From positions 1-55,320 of the forward strand of contig DULG01000069.1 in assembly GCA_012840485.1 (NCBI GenBank): 55,320 nucleotides of DNA. The letters are read 5' to 3'. The translations under genes were made by a program, and so were the position numbers. The DNA comes from Clostridia bacterium (GTDB lineage Bacteria; Bacillota; Thermoanaerobacteria; Thermoanaerobacterales; Thermoanaerobacteraceae). Below are positions 22,720 to 49,188 of the stretch, piece by piece (the stretch's first letter is position 1; each line of letters starts with the position of its first letter). Under the pieces are notes generated by a model. That model made no database searches. It was not told the DNA's origin and saw nothing but the letters and a program-made list of their open reading frames with translations.

Positions 22720-22862
22720 CTCTTATCGAGAGTGGTGGAGGGACTGGCCCGATGAAACCCGGCAACCGGCATTTTATATGCGTCTTGGTGCCAATTCCAG
22801 CAGCGTTTCGCTGAAAGATGAGAGAGTTTTGGTGTCTCTTCTTTTGGCGAAGAGACTTTTTT
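22720..22862 (+). ncRNA. SAM-I (S-box) riboswitch with expression-platform terminator
   Basis: The S-box consensus is clear: closing stem CTCTTATC (22720-22727) with GATGAGAG (22817-22824), then GTGGTGGAGGGACTGGCCC, GATGAAACCCGGCAACC, a variable hairpin and CAATTCCAGCAG. Behind it GTCTCTT (22834-22840) and AAGAGAC (22850-22856) form a terminator hairpin with a T-run. SAM binding should stop transcription and so repress the methionine-synthesis genes metF and metH that follow directly. Confidence 0.96.
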
Positions 22863-27810: not shown

Positions 27811-27836
27811 AAAAAACAGCCATTTTGGCTGTTTTA
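27811..27836 (-). terminator. Terminator of the hutP-oadB cassette
   Basis: On the minus strand AAAACAGCC pairs with GGCTGTTTT (27827-27835 with 27813-27821), followed by further T. It overlaps the stop codon of the oadB-like gene and isolates it from the cotJ operon. Confidence 0.8.
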
Positions 27837-28970
27837 ATGAACTCCTAATAGTACAAGCATTATTCCACCTGCTATTGCCGTTCCAAAAACTCCGGCAAGG
27901 TTTGGCCCCATGGCGTGCATTATTAAAAAGTTGTAAGGATTTTCTTTTATGGCTACAGAGTGGGACACTCTCGCAGCTATTGGAACAGAAGCTATACCTG
28001 CAGAGCCAACAAGAGGATTTATTTTTCCACCAGAAAGTTTATTTAAAAATTTTGCTCCCAGTACACCTCCAGCTGTTCCTGTCATAAAAGCGATAAGCCC
28101 TAAGGTGACTATCTCTAATGTCTTAATGGTCAAAAAAGTATCTGCTTTCATGGTGGAGCCTATGGAGACTCCTAATAATATCGTAATTACATTCATAAAT
28201 TCTCCACTGGCTGTTTTTGCAAGCCTATCTACAACTCCCGATTCTTTTAGAAGATTTCCTAACATTAACATTGTTATAAGAGGAGCAATTGGAGGAAGTA
28301 GTAAATCTATTAAAATAGTTATGACAATAGGAAAAGCGATTTTTTCTGTTTTTGAAACGGGTCTCATCTGTTTCATCATTATTTGCCTTTCCTGTTTTGT
28401 AGTAAGTAATCTCATGATAGGAGGTTGTATTAAAGGCATTAACGCCATATAAGAATACGCAGCGACAGAAATTTGAGCCATAAGGTGGGGAGCTAATTTT
28501 TGAGTTACGTAAATTGCCATTGGACCATCTGCACCGCCAATTATTCCTATAGCCCCCGCTTCAAATATACTAAAACCTAAAAGTTTCGCGCCTATTAATG
28601 CTATAAATATTCCTATATGGGCAAAAGCACCTAAAATCATTAAACTAGGATTTGCAATCATAGGCCCAAAGTCCGTCATGGCACCTACGCCGAGGAAGAT
28701 AAGGGGAGGATAGATAACCTTTTCAACCCCTAAGTAAAAAAAGTGTATGAGTCCCCCAGGTTCCAATAAATCAGTAGCTGGTATGTTTGCTACAATACTG
28801 CCAAAACCTATTGGAAGGAGTAAAAATGGCTCATATTTTTTTACAATAGCTAAGTATATGAGGAATATACCTACCAATATTAAAAACACATTACCCCAAG
28901 TTAAATGAACAAGACCGGTAGTTTGTATCATATCATTAAATAGTTTTAACAGAAGCTCCATTTGTGTCAC
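27834..28970 (-). CDS. Na+-translocating decarboxylase beta subunit (OadB/GcdB/MmdB family)
   Basis: This 378-residue polytopic membrane protein of the biotin-dependent sodium pumps carries carboxybiotin decarboxylation and Na+ export. The hallmark blocks are [35 protein letters not shown], and the C-terminal GSAGIASVPIAARVS and LIMHAMGPNLAGVFGTAIAGG, which include the Asp and Asn/Ser residues used for Na+ binding. It lies 3 bp behind a 48-codon membrane gene and downstream of hutP. No alpha (carboxyltransferase) or biotin-carrier gene is adjacent, so those must be elsewhere. Oxaloacetate, glutaconyl-CoA and methylmalonyl-CoA are all possible substrates. A paralogue lies at 44229-45422. Confidence 0.92.
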   Translation of the reverse strand: MTQMELLLKLFNDMIQTTGLVHLTWGNVFLILVGIFLIYLAIVKKYEPFLLLPIGFGSIVANIPATDLLEPGGLIHFFYLGVEKVIYPPLIFLGVGAMTDFGPMIANPSLMILGAFAHIGIFIALIGAKLLGFSIFEAGAIGIIGGADGPMAIYVTQKLAPHLMAQISVAAYSYMALMPLIQPPIMRLLTTKQERQIMMKQMRPVSKTEKIAFPIVITILIDLLLPPIAPLITMLMLGNLLKESGVVDRLAKTASGEFMNVITILLGVSIGSTMKADTFLTIKTLEIVTLGLIAFMTGTAGGVLGAKFLNKLSGGKINPLVGSAGIASVPIAARVSHSVAIKENPYNFLIMHAMGPNLAGVFGTAIAGGIMLVLLGVH

Positions 28971-28973
28971 TCC

Positions 28974-29120
28974 TTATTTTTTGTTAATAAATTTTTCGAT
29001 TTTACTAAATAACGGAAATATCTTTGATAATATAGCACCAATTACTAACAGAAGCATTGACAACAAAACCATGTCTATGATTGACAAATAAATAGCTCCT
29101 AAAACTGTATCTGGTACCAT
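28974..29120 (-). CDS. 48-residue membrane protein of the sodium-pump cassette (OadG/GcdD-like small subunit)
   Basis: The frame reads MVPDTVLGAIYLSIIDMVLL and continues through one membrane helix (residues 8-32) to a basic tail KIEKFINKK. CAGGAGGTG precedes ATG 29120 and the stop is 3 bp before the start of the oadB-like gene, so co-translation is near certain. A single helix with a charged tail just upstream of a beta subunit matches the small gamma/delta subunits (OadG, GcdD, MmdE) that stabilise the pump, although the sequence is too short to assign firmly and lacks the usual proline-rich part. Confidence 0.75.
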   Translation of the reverse strand: MVPDTVLGAIYLSIIDMVLLSMLLLVIGAILSKIFPLFSKIEKFINKK

Positions 29121-29132
29121 TATTTCACCTCC

Positions 29133-29167
29133 TGAAAAAATAAAAGAGCCATAGTATTATGACTCTT
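29133..29167 (-). terminator. Intercistronic terminator between hutP and the sodium-pump genes
   Basis: On the minus strand AAAGAGTCATA and TATGGCTCTTTT form a hairpin (one G-T pair) followed by ATTTTTT. It lies between hutP and the two pump genes, exactly where HutP-type antitermination acts in Bacillus. Several NAG triplets (AAG, GAG, CAG, GAG, AAG) precede it in the RNA. Confidence 0.7.
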
Positions 29168-29191
29168 TCCCTCTGTCTCCCCTTATGTACT

Positions 29192-29608
29192 TTATAAGTG
29201 CATTATTCCAAAACCCAACCTTTCATGATTTGTGAGAGGATGTAAAGCTGATTTTCCAAACATTGAAACTGCAATCCAAGTATTATCTGCTACAACTGCA
29301 ATTTTCATCATAAGGCTTACGTCTAAGGGCAAAGTCAAGGATAAGGATTTTACAGCTTCAATTGTAGCATGTAAGAGGGCGTGCATAGAAGTTGGATTTT
29401 TTTCAATTACATTATTGTTTAAAGCTGCTCCTACCACTGCAGAGACTATTTTTTCATTGAATTCGCTACTTTTACCTCCCAGCTCTGTTACAGCGCATTT
29501 GTAACCTTTTTCTAAGAGAAGTTTTTTGATTTCTTCTTCTTCCTCTCTATTTGAGGAAAGAGACAATACTATGGCTCCTTTTGCAACTGTTAGGTTGTTT
29601 ATAAACAC
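29192..29608 (-). CDS. hutP: HutP-family RNA-binding antiterminator
   Basis: This 138-residue protein has the HutP pattern throughout: GYKCAVTELGGKS, SAVVGAALNNNVIE, MHALLHATIEAV and the C-terminal HERLGFGIMHL. His76, His80 and His137 correspond to the three histidines that bind Mg2+ and L-histidine in Bacillus HutP (73, 77, 138). In Bacillus the hexamer binds NAG-rich mRNA in the presence of histidine and stops termination before the hut genes. Here the gene is first, followed by a terminator and a sodium-pump subunit pair instead of hut genes. The start is GTG at 29608; AAAGG upstream is rather far (13 bases). Confidence 0.9.
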   Translation of the reverse strand: MFINNLTVAKGAIVLSLSSNREEEEEIKKLLLEKGYKCAVTELGGKSSEFNEKIVSAVVGAALNNNVIEKNPTSMHALLHATIEAVKSLSLTLPLDVSLMMKIAVVADNTWIAVSMFGKSALHPLTNHERLGFGIMHL

Positions 29609-29779
29609 TTTAATTCTTCATCCTTTCTCACCCTTTCACTCTCTCACCCAGTATTAGTATACAACGTTATTAAAATTATGTAAAGGTTATTTTATTTTTT
29701 GATGAAAACATTTTAATAAGTAATATTAGAATTATTGAGCAAAATAAGGTATAATCTAGATAGCAAAGGAGGAATGACA

Positions 29780-31150
29780 GTGAGAAAAAACGATGTTATC
29801 ACAGTTGACGTAAAAGAGATGGAATTTGGTGGATTTGGGATAGGCTATTTTGAGGGGAAAAAAGTAAAAATAAAAGGAGCACTTTTGGGGCAAAAAATAA
29901 AGGCAAAAGTTAAAAAAGTAAAAAAGGATATGGTAGAAGGCGAAATAGTAGAAGTAATAGAGAATTCTACTTTGGAGAAGCAAAGCCTTTGCCCTCACTT
30001 TGGAGATTGTGGCGGCTGTACTTATCAAAATGTTAGCTATCAAGATCAACTTAAGATAAAAGAAGATATTTTGAAAAAGCTTTTTGAAAAAGAAGGAATA
30101 ACAGAGTACGAATTTTTAGGTATTGTAAAAAGTCCTAAAGAGCATGGTTATAGGAATAAAATGGAATACACTTTTGGAAAAGATAAAGAAGGCAATGGGG
30201 TGTTAGGACTTCATAGAAAAGGTCGATTTTATGAGGTAATCATGACAGATAAATGTAATATTGTTGAAGATGATTTTCTCAAAGCTTTAAATCTTACTTT
30301 TGATTATGCAATAAAAAAAGGACTTCCTTTTTATGACAAAAAGACTCATAAGGGTTTTTTGAGACATTTGGTTGTGAGAAAGGCATCAAAATCAGGAGAG
30401 ATTTTGTTAAACATTGTGACAACAACACAGTTGCAACATGACTTTACAGAGCTTATCGAGATATATAAAAATGCGAATTTTGAAAGTCGTCTTGTAGGTG
30501 TACTACATACTCAAAACGATTCCTGGTCAGATGCTGTAGTATGCGAAAGATTGGAAGTGTTATATGGAAGAGATTATCTCATAGAAGAGATTTTGGATTT
30601 AAAATTTAAAATAAGTGCATTTTCTTTTTTTCAGACCAATTCATACGGGGCAGAAAAACTTTATGAGACGGTGAGGGAATTTGCAGGAGATGTATCTGAC
30701 AAAATAGTTTTTGATTTGTACTCTGGTACAGGCACCATAGGTATAATTATGGCTCCAATGGCTAAAAGGGTAATTGGGATAGAACTTGTGGAAGAAGCAG
30801 TTATATCAGCAAGAGAGAATGCTGAGCTAAATGGCTTTGAAAATTGCATTTTTATTGCCGGCGATGTATCTCAAAAGTTAAAGGAGATAAAAGAAAAACC
30901 TGATGTGGTGATTGTGGACCCTCCAAGGTCTGGAATTAATCCAAAAGCTCTTGAAGATATTATAAAATTCAACCCTCAAAAAGTAGTTTATGTTTCTTGT
31001 AATCCTGAATCTCTTACAAGAGATTTAAAAATTTTTAGTGAAAAAGGATATGAGATAAAAAAAGTCAAATGTGTTGACATGTTTCCATATACACATCATA
31101 TCGAAACGGTAGTGTTATTGGAGGAAGAATTGCCTAATAAAAAGATTTAA
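29780..31150 (+). CDS. rlmD: 23S rRNA (uracil-C5)-methyltransferase, RlmD/RumA family
   Basis: This 456-residue protein has an N-terminal TRAM RNA-binding domain (1-60), an iron-sulfur site CPHFGDCGGC (Cys71, Cys77, Cys80, with Cys159), the SAM-binding FDLYSGTGTIGI, VIVDPPRSGI and catalytic Cys407 in YVSCNPES. It methylates uridine in 23S rRNA. GTG 29780 is chosen: the AGGAGG at 29767-29772 is seven bases upstream but only one base from the ATG at 29774. This is the intact relative of the 3' fragment found at 4-158. Confidence 0.9.
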   Translation: MRKNDVITVDVKEMEFGGFGIGYFEGKKVKIKGALLGQKIKAKVKKVKKDMVEGEIVEVIENSTLEKQSLCPHFGDCGGCTYQNVSYQDQLKIKEDILKKLFEKEGITEYEFLGIVKSPKEHGYRNKMEYTFGKDKEGNGVLGLHRKGRFYEVIMTDKCNIVEDDFLKALNLTFDYAIKKGLPFYDKKTHKGFLRHLVVRKASKSGEILLNIVTTTQLQHDFTELIEIYKNANFESRLVGVLHTQNDSWSDAVVCERLEVLYGRDYLIEEILDLKFKISAFSFFQTNSYGAEKLYETVREFAGDVSDKIVFDLYSGTGTIGIIMAPMAKRVIGIELVEEAVISARENAELNGFENCIFIAGDVSQKLKEIKEKPDVVIVDPPRSGINPKALEDIIKFNPQKVVYVSCNPESLTRDLKIFSEKGYEIKKVKCVDMFPYTHHIETVVLLEEELPNKKI

Positions 31151-31241: not shown

Positions 31242-31639
31242 CTATACTTTTTTCAGTATATTATAAATATTTATTAAATTTTCTTTAAGGGCAGCATTTT
31301 TATCAGTGTTTGAAATAAAGTGAACTTTATCGTCTTTATACCTAGGTATTATATGGAAATGGAGATGGTCAATATCCTGATCAGACAATTCGCCGTTTGA
31401 TTGTACAATTGAATAATTTTGTACATATTCCTGAGTTAACTAGCATTTTTGAGACATATTAAAGCTTCCATGAGAGCATTAGATATATAAGTATCAGTAA
31501 TTTCATCTAATTTTTTTATGTGTTTGTTTGGACAAACCAAAGTGTGACCTTTTGTAACAGGATTAATATCAAGAAATGCAGTTACAAGTTCATTTTGATA
31601 GATAATGTAAGCAGGTTGACTATTTGACAAAAAATACAT
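31242..31639 (-). pseudogene. HIT family hydrolase, frameshifted
   Basis: The upstream part (31639 to 31436, minus) gives 67 codons of a HIT domain (YIIYQNELVTAFLDINPVTK, GHTLVCPNKHIKKLDEI) and then stops. In another frame the remaining half follows directly: EYVQNYSIVQSNGELSDQDI with DHLHFHIIPRYKDD, that is, the HxHxH catalytic motif of nucleotide-binding HIT hydrolases, ending at 31242. The break lies near 31430-31442 and also seems to have lost several residues. As written it cannot make an intact enzyme. A sequencing error alone would not explain the missing residues. Confidence 0.8.
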
Positions 31640-31762: not shown

Positions 31763-32363
31763 TCCTTTTATTGATTTTGCTTTTGCAAACAATAAATATA
31801 AACTGCTGTCTGAAAAAGAAAAGAAAAAGATGGTGTATAAGGCAAACAGGTATTGTCATGAAAATGGTTATGAGCGTACTTCTGTTTGGACTTTTGCAAA
31901 GAAAAATACGGGGAAATATTCTTCTATTACAAGAGACAATTTTCTGGGATTTGGCGTATCTGCAACAACCTTACTAAAAGATCAATTTAAAATTAATACT
32001 TTCTCTATTAACGAATATACAAAAAGAGTGGAAGAAGAGAAGTTGCCGACAGCCTTAACGTTAAAGTTTTCCTTGCGCCAGCGAATGGTCTATTATTTGT
32101 TTTGGAATGTTTATTCTTTAAAAATAGATCCTCAAAAATTCAAAAAATTTTTTGGTGTTTCTCTTAATAAAGTGTTTGGATTAGAGCTTTTATTTTGCAG
32201 AATATTGGGTTTTATTAGAGTAAAAGATAATGTATATTATGTTACAGAGCGTGGTGCTTATTATTATCACTACATTGAACAAGTCTACACAACAGCATAC
32301 ATTGATAAGATGTGGAATGTTTTAAGAATGACGCTTTTTCCAACTGAAATTGTATTAAAATAA
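31737..32363 (+). pseudogene. 5'-deleted HemN/HemZ-like radical SAM gene (C-terminal part only)
   Basis: The frame is open from 31737, inside the palindrome, to 32363. It contains GYERTSVWTFAK, YSSITRDNFLGFGVSATTLL, INTFSINEYTKRVEEEKLPT and a C-terminal wing-like region (YYVTERGAYYYHYIEQV). This matches the C-terminal half of coproporphyrinogen-III-oxidase-like radical SAM proteins; the N-terminal part with the CxxxCxxC cluster motif is missing. The first ATG is at 31830 with no good ribosome site. A deletion has fused the promoter/operator at 31704-31762 to the remainder of this gene. Confidence 0.75.
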
Positions 32364-44228: not shown

Positions 44229-45422
44229 TTAATGTCCAAATATCGACAAAAACACACCTGCTGCTACGGCTGTGCCTATTACGCCTGCAACATTTGGACC
44301 CATAGCGTGCATTAGCACAAAATTGCCGGGTCTGGCTTTTTGAGCTTCAACCTGAGATACCCTTGCTGCCATAGGAACAGCTGAGACACCGGCAGAGCCT
44401 ATAAGCGGATTGATTTTGCCTCCTGATATCCAGTTCATTATCTTGGCTATTATAATGCCACCTGCGGTGGATACCGCAAAAGCCACAAGACCAAGGGCTA
44501 TAATACCTAGTGTCTTTGGATTTAAGAAGTTTTCAGCGCTAGCCGTAGCTCCTACTGATGTACCTAAAAATATGACGATTATATTGTTGAGCTCATTTTG
44601 AGCGGTTTTTGATAGTCTCTCTACAACACCCGACTCTCTAAATAGATTGCCCATCATAAGCATGCCTATAAGGGGCGCTGCCGGAGGCAATATCAAAGAT
44701 ACCAGTATGGTCACGACAATGGGAAATATAATCTTTTCTGTCTTGGATACAGGCCTTAACTGTTCCATTACGATTTCCCGTTCTTCCTTAGTGGTCATAA
44801 GCCTCATAATGGGCGGCTGTATAATGGGTACCAAGGCCATATAGGAATAAGCAGCAACGGCTATAGGCCCCAGCAAATGGGGTGCTAGCTTTGTTGCTAA
44901 GTAAATAGCTGTAGGACCATCGGCTCCACCTATAATCCCTATGGCTGCTGCCTCTTTCATGGTGTAGCCAAGAAATAAAGATGCCACGTTAAATGTTATG
45001 AATACACCTAGCTGGGCTGCTGCACCTATGAATATACTTAACGGATTGGCTATAAGGGGGCCGAAATCCGTCATAGCACCAACGCCGAGAAATATGAGCG
45101 GTGGGAATATACCTAAAAAGTCACCTTGATAAAGGTAATAGAGTAGCCCACCTATGTTCTTAAGTACAGGAAGCCCATCTTTACCTATCTCATATGTAGG
45201 AGGCTGCATCAACCCGGTCAGGGGCAGGTTAGCTAATAACATGCCAAATGATATAGGCAAGAGCAAAAGTGGCTCATATTTTTTTGCTACAGCAAGGTAA
45301 ATAAGTATTAACGAAACTAAGATCATTACTATATGTTTCCATGAAATCGCAGCGAAACCGCTCTGGTTCCAGAGGTCGATAAGCACTTGTAACATAGAAC
45401 TATTCACCTCTCCTATCTCCAT
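44229..45422 (-). CDS. Na+-translocating decarboxylase beta subunit, second copy (OadB/MmdB family)
   Basis: This 397-residue membrane protein is a paralogue of 27834-28970, with the same blocks ([73 protein letters not shown]) and an extra loop near residues 75-95 ([18 protein letters not shown]). Codons use noticeably more G and C than the neighbours, hinting at transfer. It overlaps the gamma-type gene by 10 bp. The alpha-subunit gene upstream is destroyed, so by itself this pair cannot pump unless another alpha subunit is supplied in trans. Confidence 0.9.
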
Positions 45423-45796
45423 ATTCTTGAATTTATAATATCATTTCTACCGGCCATAGCCCACATTGACCTAACCTGTCCCACTTTTTTTATGGATCTT
45501 ATCCTTAAGTTGAAGTCCTCGGCACCATATGCAACTATAGCAGCTGATATCACTGCGATAAGCTCTTCGCCTTTTTCAACGTTTGTATCTTCTACCAGAA
45601 TATTTTCATCAGCAAAATATTGGCCTTCTTTGTTACCTTGGCCCATCTCCTTTGACGGCTTATTGGGCTGACTACCCCATTTTATGTATTTAAACAATAG
45701 TATTACAATGCTTAATACTGCCAATACAGCAAATACGACGCCCATACCGAGGACCGTTACCATTATATTTTCTTCCAGAGATTGAATAAAACTCAT
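45413..45796 (-). CDS. OadG/MmdD-like gamma subunit of the sodium pump
   Basis: This 127-residue protein has one N-terminal membrane helix (about 12-37, [20 protein letters not shown]) followed by a linker and a conserved cytoplasmic tail ([15 protein letters not shown]...IRSIKKV...MWAMAGR), typical of OAD gamma family proteins of methylmalonyl-CoA or oxaloacetate decarboxylase. The end SRIWR overlaps the start of the oadB-like gene. It is preceded by the relic of the alpha subunit gene. Confidence 0.85.
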
Positions 45797-48965: not shown

Positions 48966-49146
48966 CGAAAAACAAAAGCTCCTGTGAAGTTTGTACTAGG
49001 CTAATTTGTTTTCAACCAACGCAACTTATACGGGAATCCGGGTTCATCAGTGGAAGAAATGCCTGCGAGACAGGACTTCAGAAGCTGGTGACAGGGTACC
49101 CACCTGCGAGAGCGGGGATGAAAACATAGCCTTACGGCTTCTTGGG
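48966..49146 (+). ncRNA. ssrS: Probable 6S RNA (SsrS)
   Basis: Between two genes lies a G+C-richer stretch of about 180 bases that ends in a strong terminator. Its ends pair over a long distance: AGGCTA near 48998 with TAGCCT near 49129, TTGTTTTCA with TGAAAACA, and GAAG with CTTC further out. A second, inner arm pairs CCTG...CAGG. A long rod with an unpaired centre, the size, and segments such as GGGTACCCACCTGCGAGAG are what I know from Firmicute 6S RNAs, which bind sigma-A RNA polymerase. TATAAT at 48954-48959 places the start at about 48966. The family match is from memory. Confidence 0.65.
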
Positions 49147-49188
49147 TAAAAATTAAAAGCCCTTCTGTTGAAGGGCTTTTAATTTTTA
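49147..49188 (+). terminator. Strong terminator after the small RNA
   Basis: A 19-bp perfect stem (49147-49165 with 49170-49188) around a TGTT loop, ending in an A/T-rich foot with T-run on both strands. Confidence 0.92.

Follow-up and report, generated by a model that had tools for sequence, protein, structure and literature searches.

The DNA analysed here, referred to as the window, is a stretch of 55,320 nucleotides (nt) from a heat-loving bacterium of the Thermoanaerobacteraceae (GenBank assembly GCA_012840485.1, contig DULG01000069.1). It carries, in series and all on the minus strand, a gene for a HutP-family RNA-binding protein (hutP_B), a terminator, a 48-codon gene and an oadB-type gene of sodium-pump decarboxylases (oadB_B). 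An original prediction made from the sequence had described this order at 27834–29608, and Pfam, TIGR01109 and a terminator scan bear it out. The features of the locus, in window coordinates, are:

29684–29656, minus: putative promoter of the hutP_B unit, TTTACA-17-TATACT, matching the consensus at 10 of 12 positions
29608–29192, minus: hutP_B, HutP-family RNA-binding protein of 138 amino acids (aa), Pfam PF09021, 131.4 bits
29174–29163, minus: leader motif AGAGGGAAAGAG (AGNG-N4-AGNG), its second AGNG inside the 5' arm of the terminator; proposed HutP_B contact
29169–29142, minus: intrinsic terminator, 12 pairs, loop of 4, -12.6 kcal/mol, tail ATTTTTTCAG, followed by ATTTTTT to 29135
29133–29128, minus: Shine-Dalgarno sequence AGGAGG of the 48-codon gene, 1 nt past the T-run, read from the sequence
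29120–28974, minus: 48-codon gene, conserved in sequence and position in two genera, with one hydrophobic segment (by eye)
27834–28961, minus: oadB_B, beta subunit of a Na+-pump decarboxylase, 375 aa from ATG 28961; open reading frame (ORF) open from GTG 28970

The match of HutP_B to PF09021 covers the entire model (cut-off 25 bits), and a Foldseek search with its predicted structure, a modest model (predicted local distance difference test 68.6), returned HutP for all top 7 matches. By alignment, H76, H80 and H128 of the window protein correspond to H73, H77 and H138 of Bacillus subtilis HutP, which we take to be its metal ligands. Two of the three metal-site histidines first proposed (H76 and H80) stand, while the third, H137, aligns with H147 and is to be replaced by H128. 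No hut genes were found among the scanned neighbours of hutP_B; in the window genome, hutH lies on contig C3 and hutU on contig C87. Of the promoter-like sites on the minus strand of the region, that at 29684–29656 is the best and lies upstream of hutP_B, but four such sites occur around the gene against 3.4 expected from shuffles, so its support is weak.

The terminator is the sole terminator-like site in 28900–29800 (shuffles give 0.5, standard deviation (sd) 0.8). With its T-run ending only 1 nt before the Shine-Dalgarno sequence, there is no room for a separate promoter of the 48-codon gene, and read-through is the obvious route to its expression. No Pfam or NCBIfam family matched the 48-codon ORF. 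Its sequence is 98–100% identical across five other loci of the genus, and relatives in five genomes of another genus (49–52% identity) each lie directly before the same oadB; because of this conservation within the genus and in a second one, the ORF is taken to be a real gene, and it is a probable small subunit of the pump. The predicted membrane subunit of a Na+-pumping decarboxylase is recovered clearly, oadB_B scoring 502.8 bits on Pfam OAD_beta (cut-off 31.6) and 467 bits on TIGR01109 (cut-off 190.6). On sequence grounds, ATG 28961 is a likelier start than GTG 28970.

Of 24 genomes searched in the order, seven have an intact hutP_B: six of the ten of the genus, and G023 of another family. 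The order hutP, terminator, 48-codon gene, oadB is kept with all six genus copies, as the proposed linkage required, although in G005 an insert of about 1.7 kb with an opposite-strand ORF of 444 aa separates the 48-codon gene from oadB_B. In two genomes of another genus (G014 and G020), a broken hutP_B directly adjoins a broken oadB_B. Leaders are almost identical in five of the genus genomes, and the hairpin is identical in five of the six loci. In the G008 leader, the 17 nt past the stop codon and the loop are changed, with no change to AGAGGGAAAGAG, the stem or the T-run.

The HutP_B subfamily and its leaders

The window genome encodes a second HutP, HutP_A (contig C16, L003 8275–8694), present in 23 of the 24 order genomes. 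A tree splits HutP_A from HutP_B with full support (100/100). Seven aligned HutP_A rows have G, G and E at the metal-site positions, the E being gap-dependent. HutP_A served as a control at 22 of its 23 loci (L019, without a complete ORF, was left out): a same-strand gene follows within 750 nt in only four of the 22, with no obvious cis target, and the leader motif AGNGN4AGNG was not found within 400 nt of HutP_A at any of them. In a phylum sample of 398 genomes, some HutP occurs in 251, and a HutP_B scoring at least 132 bits on profile A1 in 23; the next-best scores are those of a third copy in G050 (92 bits) and of matches that reach 64 bits at most. Further class searches gave HutP_B in 2 of 59, 41 of 82 and 2 of 22 genomes. 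One class search yielded 47 hutP_B matches, of which six were already in the set and 39 of the other 41 were added (G474:C5 and G522:C148 were left out); L150–L152 (58–65 bits) were excluded and L149 (92 bits on the first profile) was retained. The resulting 69 loci form 34 clusters at 80% protein identity, and 65 of the 69 proteins retain the histidines equivalent to H76, H80 and H128.

Terminators were scanned for from the leader to the next gene, or over 600 nt where none was near. At a threshold of -12 kcal/mol they occur in 63 of the 69 loci and 29 of the 34 clusters. Among the clusters without one, L131 is at a contig end; in L135 the motif and terminator are located after a second gene, before a CoA-transferase (CoA, coenzyme A); in L143 the terminator was cut off by the choice of start codon and recovered in a wider scan; L144 has a weak hairpin only; and in L217 the scan covered only about 80 nt, the next ORF being called from too early a start. 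For gaps of 100–750 nt, 21 of 22 HutP_B clusters have a terminator, compared with 44 of 109 control gene pairs from the same loci (Fisher p 8e-7).

For 30 cluster leaders, AG dinucleotides were analysed in slices of 63 nt that stop 12 nt short of the hairpin apex, with dinucleotide shuffles for comparison. Pairs of AG 8 nt apart number 45 against 16.6 (sd 3.4) in shuffles; all other distances from 3 to 17 are within two sd, and distances 2 and 18 are mildly raised. The 8-nt excess is absent from 80 control terminators (20 vs 20.8). The motif AGNGN4AGNG is present in 18 of the 30 leaders (shuffle mean 1.2, maximum 5 in 200), the window not being one of them because its second AGNG copy lies just outside its slice, and three AG in 8-nt register occur in 13 (1.6 in shuffles). 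The leader of G170 has two clusters of AG repeats and that of G420 two less regular ones.

The nif/anf leaders (preceding nitrogenase genes) show the pattern most plainly, with three AGNG exactly 8 nt apart in 31 of 36 and the last copy starting the 5' arm; since the 36 were picked by a pattern requiring AG repeats, this shows regularity, not enrichment. In 20 leaders chosen from the 36 (of the five without the exact triple, three fall outside the 20), 98.6% of stem cells are paired, 17 cells carry changes on both sides (shuffles give 6.0, and none of 500 reached 17), and the AG columns are invariant. The attenuator anatomy and NAG-type leader proposed for the window are supported, covariation being seen in the nif/anf stems and not in the AG repeats. 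As side observations, five anf-labelled loci (L207, L208, L209, L210 and L214) have two successive HutP_B-type terminators between hutP_B and the nitrogenase genes, and separate AG repeats accompany each terminator (in L207 as judged from pattern matches); several nif leaders (e.g., L191, L199, L212) have a second hairpin, CCAAATC...GATTTGG, immediately before the first AG repeat.

These comparisons bear on another account, in which the hairpin is the ordinary end of hutP, the pump genes are silent or expressed from a promoter inside hutP, and the neighbourhood is accidental. Terminators after genes are common, as the 44 of 109 control pairs illustrate, and one weak promoter-like site lies inside hutP (29375–29347). 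Against this stand the genus-conserved order, the T-run lying 1 nt from the next Shine-Dalgarno sequence, the lack of an 8-nt AG period in control terminators, and the location of hutP_B beside Na+-pump-type genes in other families (G170, G420, G279 and G365); we give this account little credence. It is similarly improbable that HutP_B acts inversely or elsewhere, by stabilising termination or by blocking the adjacent ribosome-binding site. The leader is purine-rich, its Shine-Dalgarno sequence is 1 nt from the T-run, and RNA-binding proteins with NAG-type sites can terminate, as does the trp RNA-binding attenuation protein (TRAP). However, both the window and the nif/anf leaders have their last AG copy within the 5' arm, where binding of HutP_B should open the hairpin, and from locus to locus the terminator lies at very different distances from the next gene.

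The combination of motif and terminator is concentrated behind hutP_B. Over all 69 loci, many of them related, 77 of 100 such sites (overlapping matches counted singly, -10 kcal/mol) fall within 760 nt after the hutP_B stop codon, in about 3% of the 1.69 Mb searched. The window has 14 AGNGN4AGNG sites on both strands, and only that at 29174 overlaps a terminator. Elsewhere in the genome the motif was not found before hutU (141 nt), hutH (415 nt), gdh (two copies), kor or the other oadB genes. Three-AG runs at 8 nt exist in the upstream stretches of hutH and oadB-pckA, away from terminators; that of hutH, a single run, lies about 200 nt further up than the terminator present there. One motif overlapping a terminator precedes mcm (L090, 3665 onward). 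It was treated as chance because a promoter-like TTGTTA-17-TATAAT (by eye) comes after the terminator; it could also be a target in trans. At gathering thresholds, neither the window leader nor nine hutP_B loci matched a known family of Rfam, which reported only tRNAs in one hutP_B locus and, within the window, a SAM (S-adenosylmethionine) riboswitch and 6S RNA.

Operons behind HutP_B and the identity of the pump

Clusters were labelled by our reading of the neighbouring genes, partly checked with Pfam and NCBIfam. Operons of nif or anf lie behind hutP_B in 12 of the 34 clusters, CoA-transferase genes in six (some with the malonate transporter genes madL and madM), and ammonium or glutamine transport genes in three; five have other or no evident targets and three are at contig ends. 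Genes of Na+-pump-type decarboxylases adjoin hutP_B in five, the window and the following four:

G170: hutP-mmdA-mmdD-mmdC-oadB
G279: hutP-mmdA-mmdD-mmdC-CoA-transferase-oadB
G420: hutP-oadB
G365: oadB-hutP-malonate decarboxylase genes

In the tree, nitrogenase-linked HutP_B proteins lie on one side of a branch (100/98), with the other labelled groups opposite. The pump-linked proteins need two changes on the best tree, so this association may have arisen more than once, while strongly supported branches force just one.

The closest relatives of oadB_B outside the genus (84–88% identity) belong to another genus and lie behind the same 48-codon gene. Their surroundings point to methylmalonyl-CoA metabolism. 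Relatives in G013, G016, G017 and G021 follow epimerase-like and MeaB-like genes (the mutase was read in G013 only, where the oadB_B relative precedes a 2-oxoacid oxidoreductase), in L093 the 48-codon gene and an oadB_B relative follow mcm-meaB-mce, and in G019 (L095) mmdA and a biotin carrier gene come immediately after the pair. The window genome itself has mcm, meaB, an epimerase-like ORF, mmdA, and mmdD-like and mmdC-like genes on contigs C74 and C81, the ends of which overlap by 127 nt. Of these, mcm and meaB were identified by NCBIfam, and the epimerase-like and mmdD-like ORFs were assigned by similarity only; the mmdA piece scores 637.9 bits on TIGR01117 (cut-off 998.8, unmet even by full-length relatives) and the mmdC-like gene 105 bits on NF047903 (cut-off 200). 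The sole Carboxyl_trans gene found in the genome lies in this mcm cluster. No beta gene is present in the C74/C81 cluster; contiguity of the beta gene with the A, D and C genes, seen in G019, does not hold in the window genome.

Because its relatives sit in methylmalonyl-CoA clusters and the mmd cluster of the window genome is without a beta gene, oadB_B is read as probably the mmdB gene of methylmalonyl-CoA decarboxylase, displaced behind hutP_B. Glutaconyl-CoA decarboxylase, the pump through which glutamate had been suggested to be linked to this gene, is not favoured, as the close relatives are found among mcm, meaB, mce or mmdA. The link to glutamate itself survives in another form. Glutamate can be fermented through 2-oxoglutarate, succinyl-CoA and methylmalonyl-CoA to propionyl-CoA, and on the basis of the gene clusters and this general knowledge such a pathway is likely in the host.

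Some other features of the window and its genome may be recorded. A second oadB gene with its oadG-like gene (44229–45796, minus) lies beside a phosphoenolpyruvate carboxykinase-like gene, and its upstream stretch has neither HutP nor AGNGN4AGNG. The SAM riboswitch (22720–22824, plus, 93.6 bits) precedes methylenetetrahydrofolate reductase-like and methionine synthase-like genes, and the 6S RNA gene is at 48976–49152 (plus, 86.9 bits). A HIT-like protein (by eye) at 31242–31639 (minus) is apparently in two ORFs of 48 and 67 aa, perhaps a pseudogene, and a 177-aa ORF at 31830–32363 (plus) matches coproporphyrinogen III oxidase-like proteins at its C-terminal part only, a possible gene remnant. 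On contig C87 (L092 12078–13324), an imidazolonepropionase-like gene of the hut cluster is spread over two frames that overlap (65 and 350 aa), and may be frameshifted or mis-sequenced.

Proposed mechanism and signal

HutP_B is probably a cis-acting antiterminator, with hutP_B, leader, 48-codon gene and oadB_B forming one attenuated transcription unit. Transcription would start before hutP_B and by default stop at the hairpin 29169–29142, so that HutP_B alone is made. Active HutP_B, requiring a metal and a small ligand as in B. subtilis, would bind the regularly spaced NAG triplets that lead up to the hairpin and continue into its 5' arm; the bound arm would stay single-stranded and the polymerase would proceed into the 48-codon gene and oadB_B. 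These two genes may specify the membrane portion of a decarboxylase that pumps Na+, most likely MmdB, with the partner subunits mmdA, mmdD and mmdC encoded elsewhere together with methylmalonyl-CoA mutase and the epimerase-like gene. On this view, cells would make the pump while fermenting glutamate-type substrates, perhaps including histidine, via succinyl-CoA to propionyl-CoA.

Several observations weigh against this reading. On the NCBIfam equivalog model for the hut operon antiterminator HutP (NF002838), HutP_B scores 46.4 bits, below the cut-off of 155, and four further HutP_B proteins score 24–42 bits. At least one of the three histidines is lost in 4 of the 69 proteins (L149, L206, L216 and L217); the leaders of these four are also missing, doubtful or unmotivated, and decay or altered function is possible. 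Six loci have no qualifying terminator, and the counted terminators of L206 and L216 are doubtful by eye. The motif is absent from 12 of the 30 leader slices, the window leader has two clear AGNG copies rather than three and no three-AG run at 8 nt, and no target gene is evident at L130 or L206. Lastly, the window genome has two further oadB genes, at 44229–45422 of the window (with its own oadG-like gene) and on contig C85, so that the pairing of oadB_B with MmdA is one that we infer, and mmdB could be either of those two.

The original prediction was of a histidine-responsive switch on a pump of the glutaconyl-CoA (or oxaloacetate) decarboxylase type. According to a review, L-histidine and Mg2+ activate the HutP of B. 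subtilis. Urocanase is found in all seven order genomes with an intact hutP_B and in 4 of the 17 others, hutH and hutU are present in the window genome, and the two genomes with broken hutP_B (G014 and G020) are without urocanase. The co-occurrence is weak inside the genus, however (6 of 6 with hutP_B, 2 of 4 without), the subfamily also precedes nif, amtB, malonate and CoA-transferase genes, the motif is absent from the stretches before hutU and hutH, and synteny favours methylmalonyl-CoA over glutaconyl-CoA. Such a switch is accordingly considered doubtful. Histidine as the ligand of the window system, taken by itself, is a tentative and rather unlikely proposal, for which family precedent, the kept histidines and the urocanase co-occurrence speak. 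As the ligand of the whole subfamily it is unlikely, and more so than for the window, because HutP_B precedes nitrogenase, ammonium-transport and other genes and scores low on NF002838.

Turning from the window to the subfamily as a whole, we lean slightly towards HutP_B being a modular attenuation system of Clostridia-like bacteria that stands alone, is gated by metabolites and mostly senses ligands other than histidine. Its parts are a gene for a small protein, a NAG leader of 8-nt period and a terminator, set before genes for Na+-pump and malonate decarboxylases, CoA-transferases, Mo- and Fe-only nitrogenases, and ammonium or glutamine transport.

Comparison with known systems

So far, HutP has been known as a switch dedicated to a single histidine operon. 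The passages on HutP located in PMC7430163, PMC12456014, PMC8934654, PMC7236355, PMC9971707, PMC4448311 and PMC7732839 all concern Bacillus, and PMC4347634 does not mention the protein. Recent heliobacterial genome papers describe nifI1 clusters, and neither HutP nor the word "hut" appears in the portions of text consulted. No report of HutP outside hut operons was found in the open-access literature searched, subscription literature being mostly outside the search. HutP_B would turn a one-operon antiterminator into a reusable control module and offers a concrete candidate mechanism by which nif and anf operons could be controlled at the RNA level, which raises the question of which signal each HutP_B senses.

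Compared with the HutP/hut leader system of B. subtilis, the window hutP_B adjoins a Na+-pump gene and not hut genes, its protein reaches 46 of the 155 bits set by the NCBIfam model, and its AG repeats are 8 nt apart, whereas the HutP sites of the B. subtilis hut leader are presumably 7 nt apart. The window oadB_B shares with MmdB the OAD_beta/TIGR01109 family, and its relatives at 84–88% identity lie in mcm-meaB-mce or mmdA clusters; it differs in being located apart from mmdA-mmdD-mmdC and paired with hutP_B and the 48-codon gene. TRAP is, like HutP, an amino-acid-activated ring protein that reads spaced NAG triplets in a leader, but the two have unrelated folds, and TRAP causes termination while HutP prevents it. 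We rate the mechanism proposed here as HutP-like, and the subfamily, the spacing of its leader code and the operons that it would control as different.

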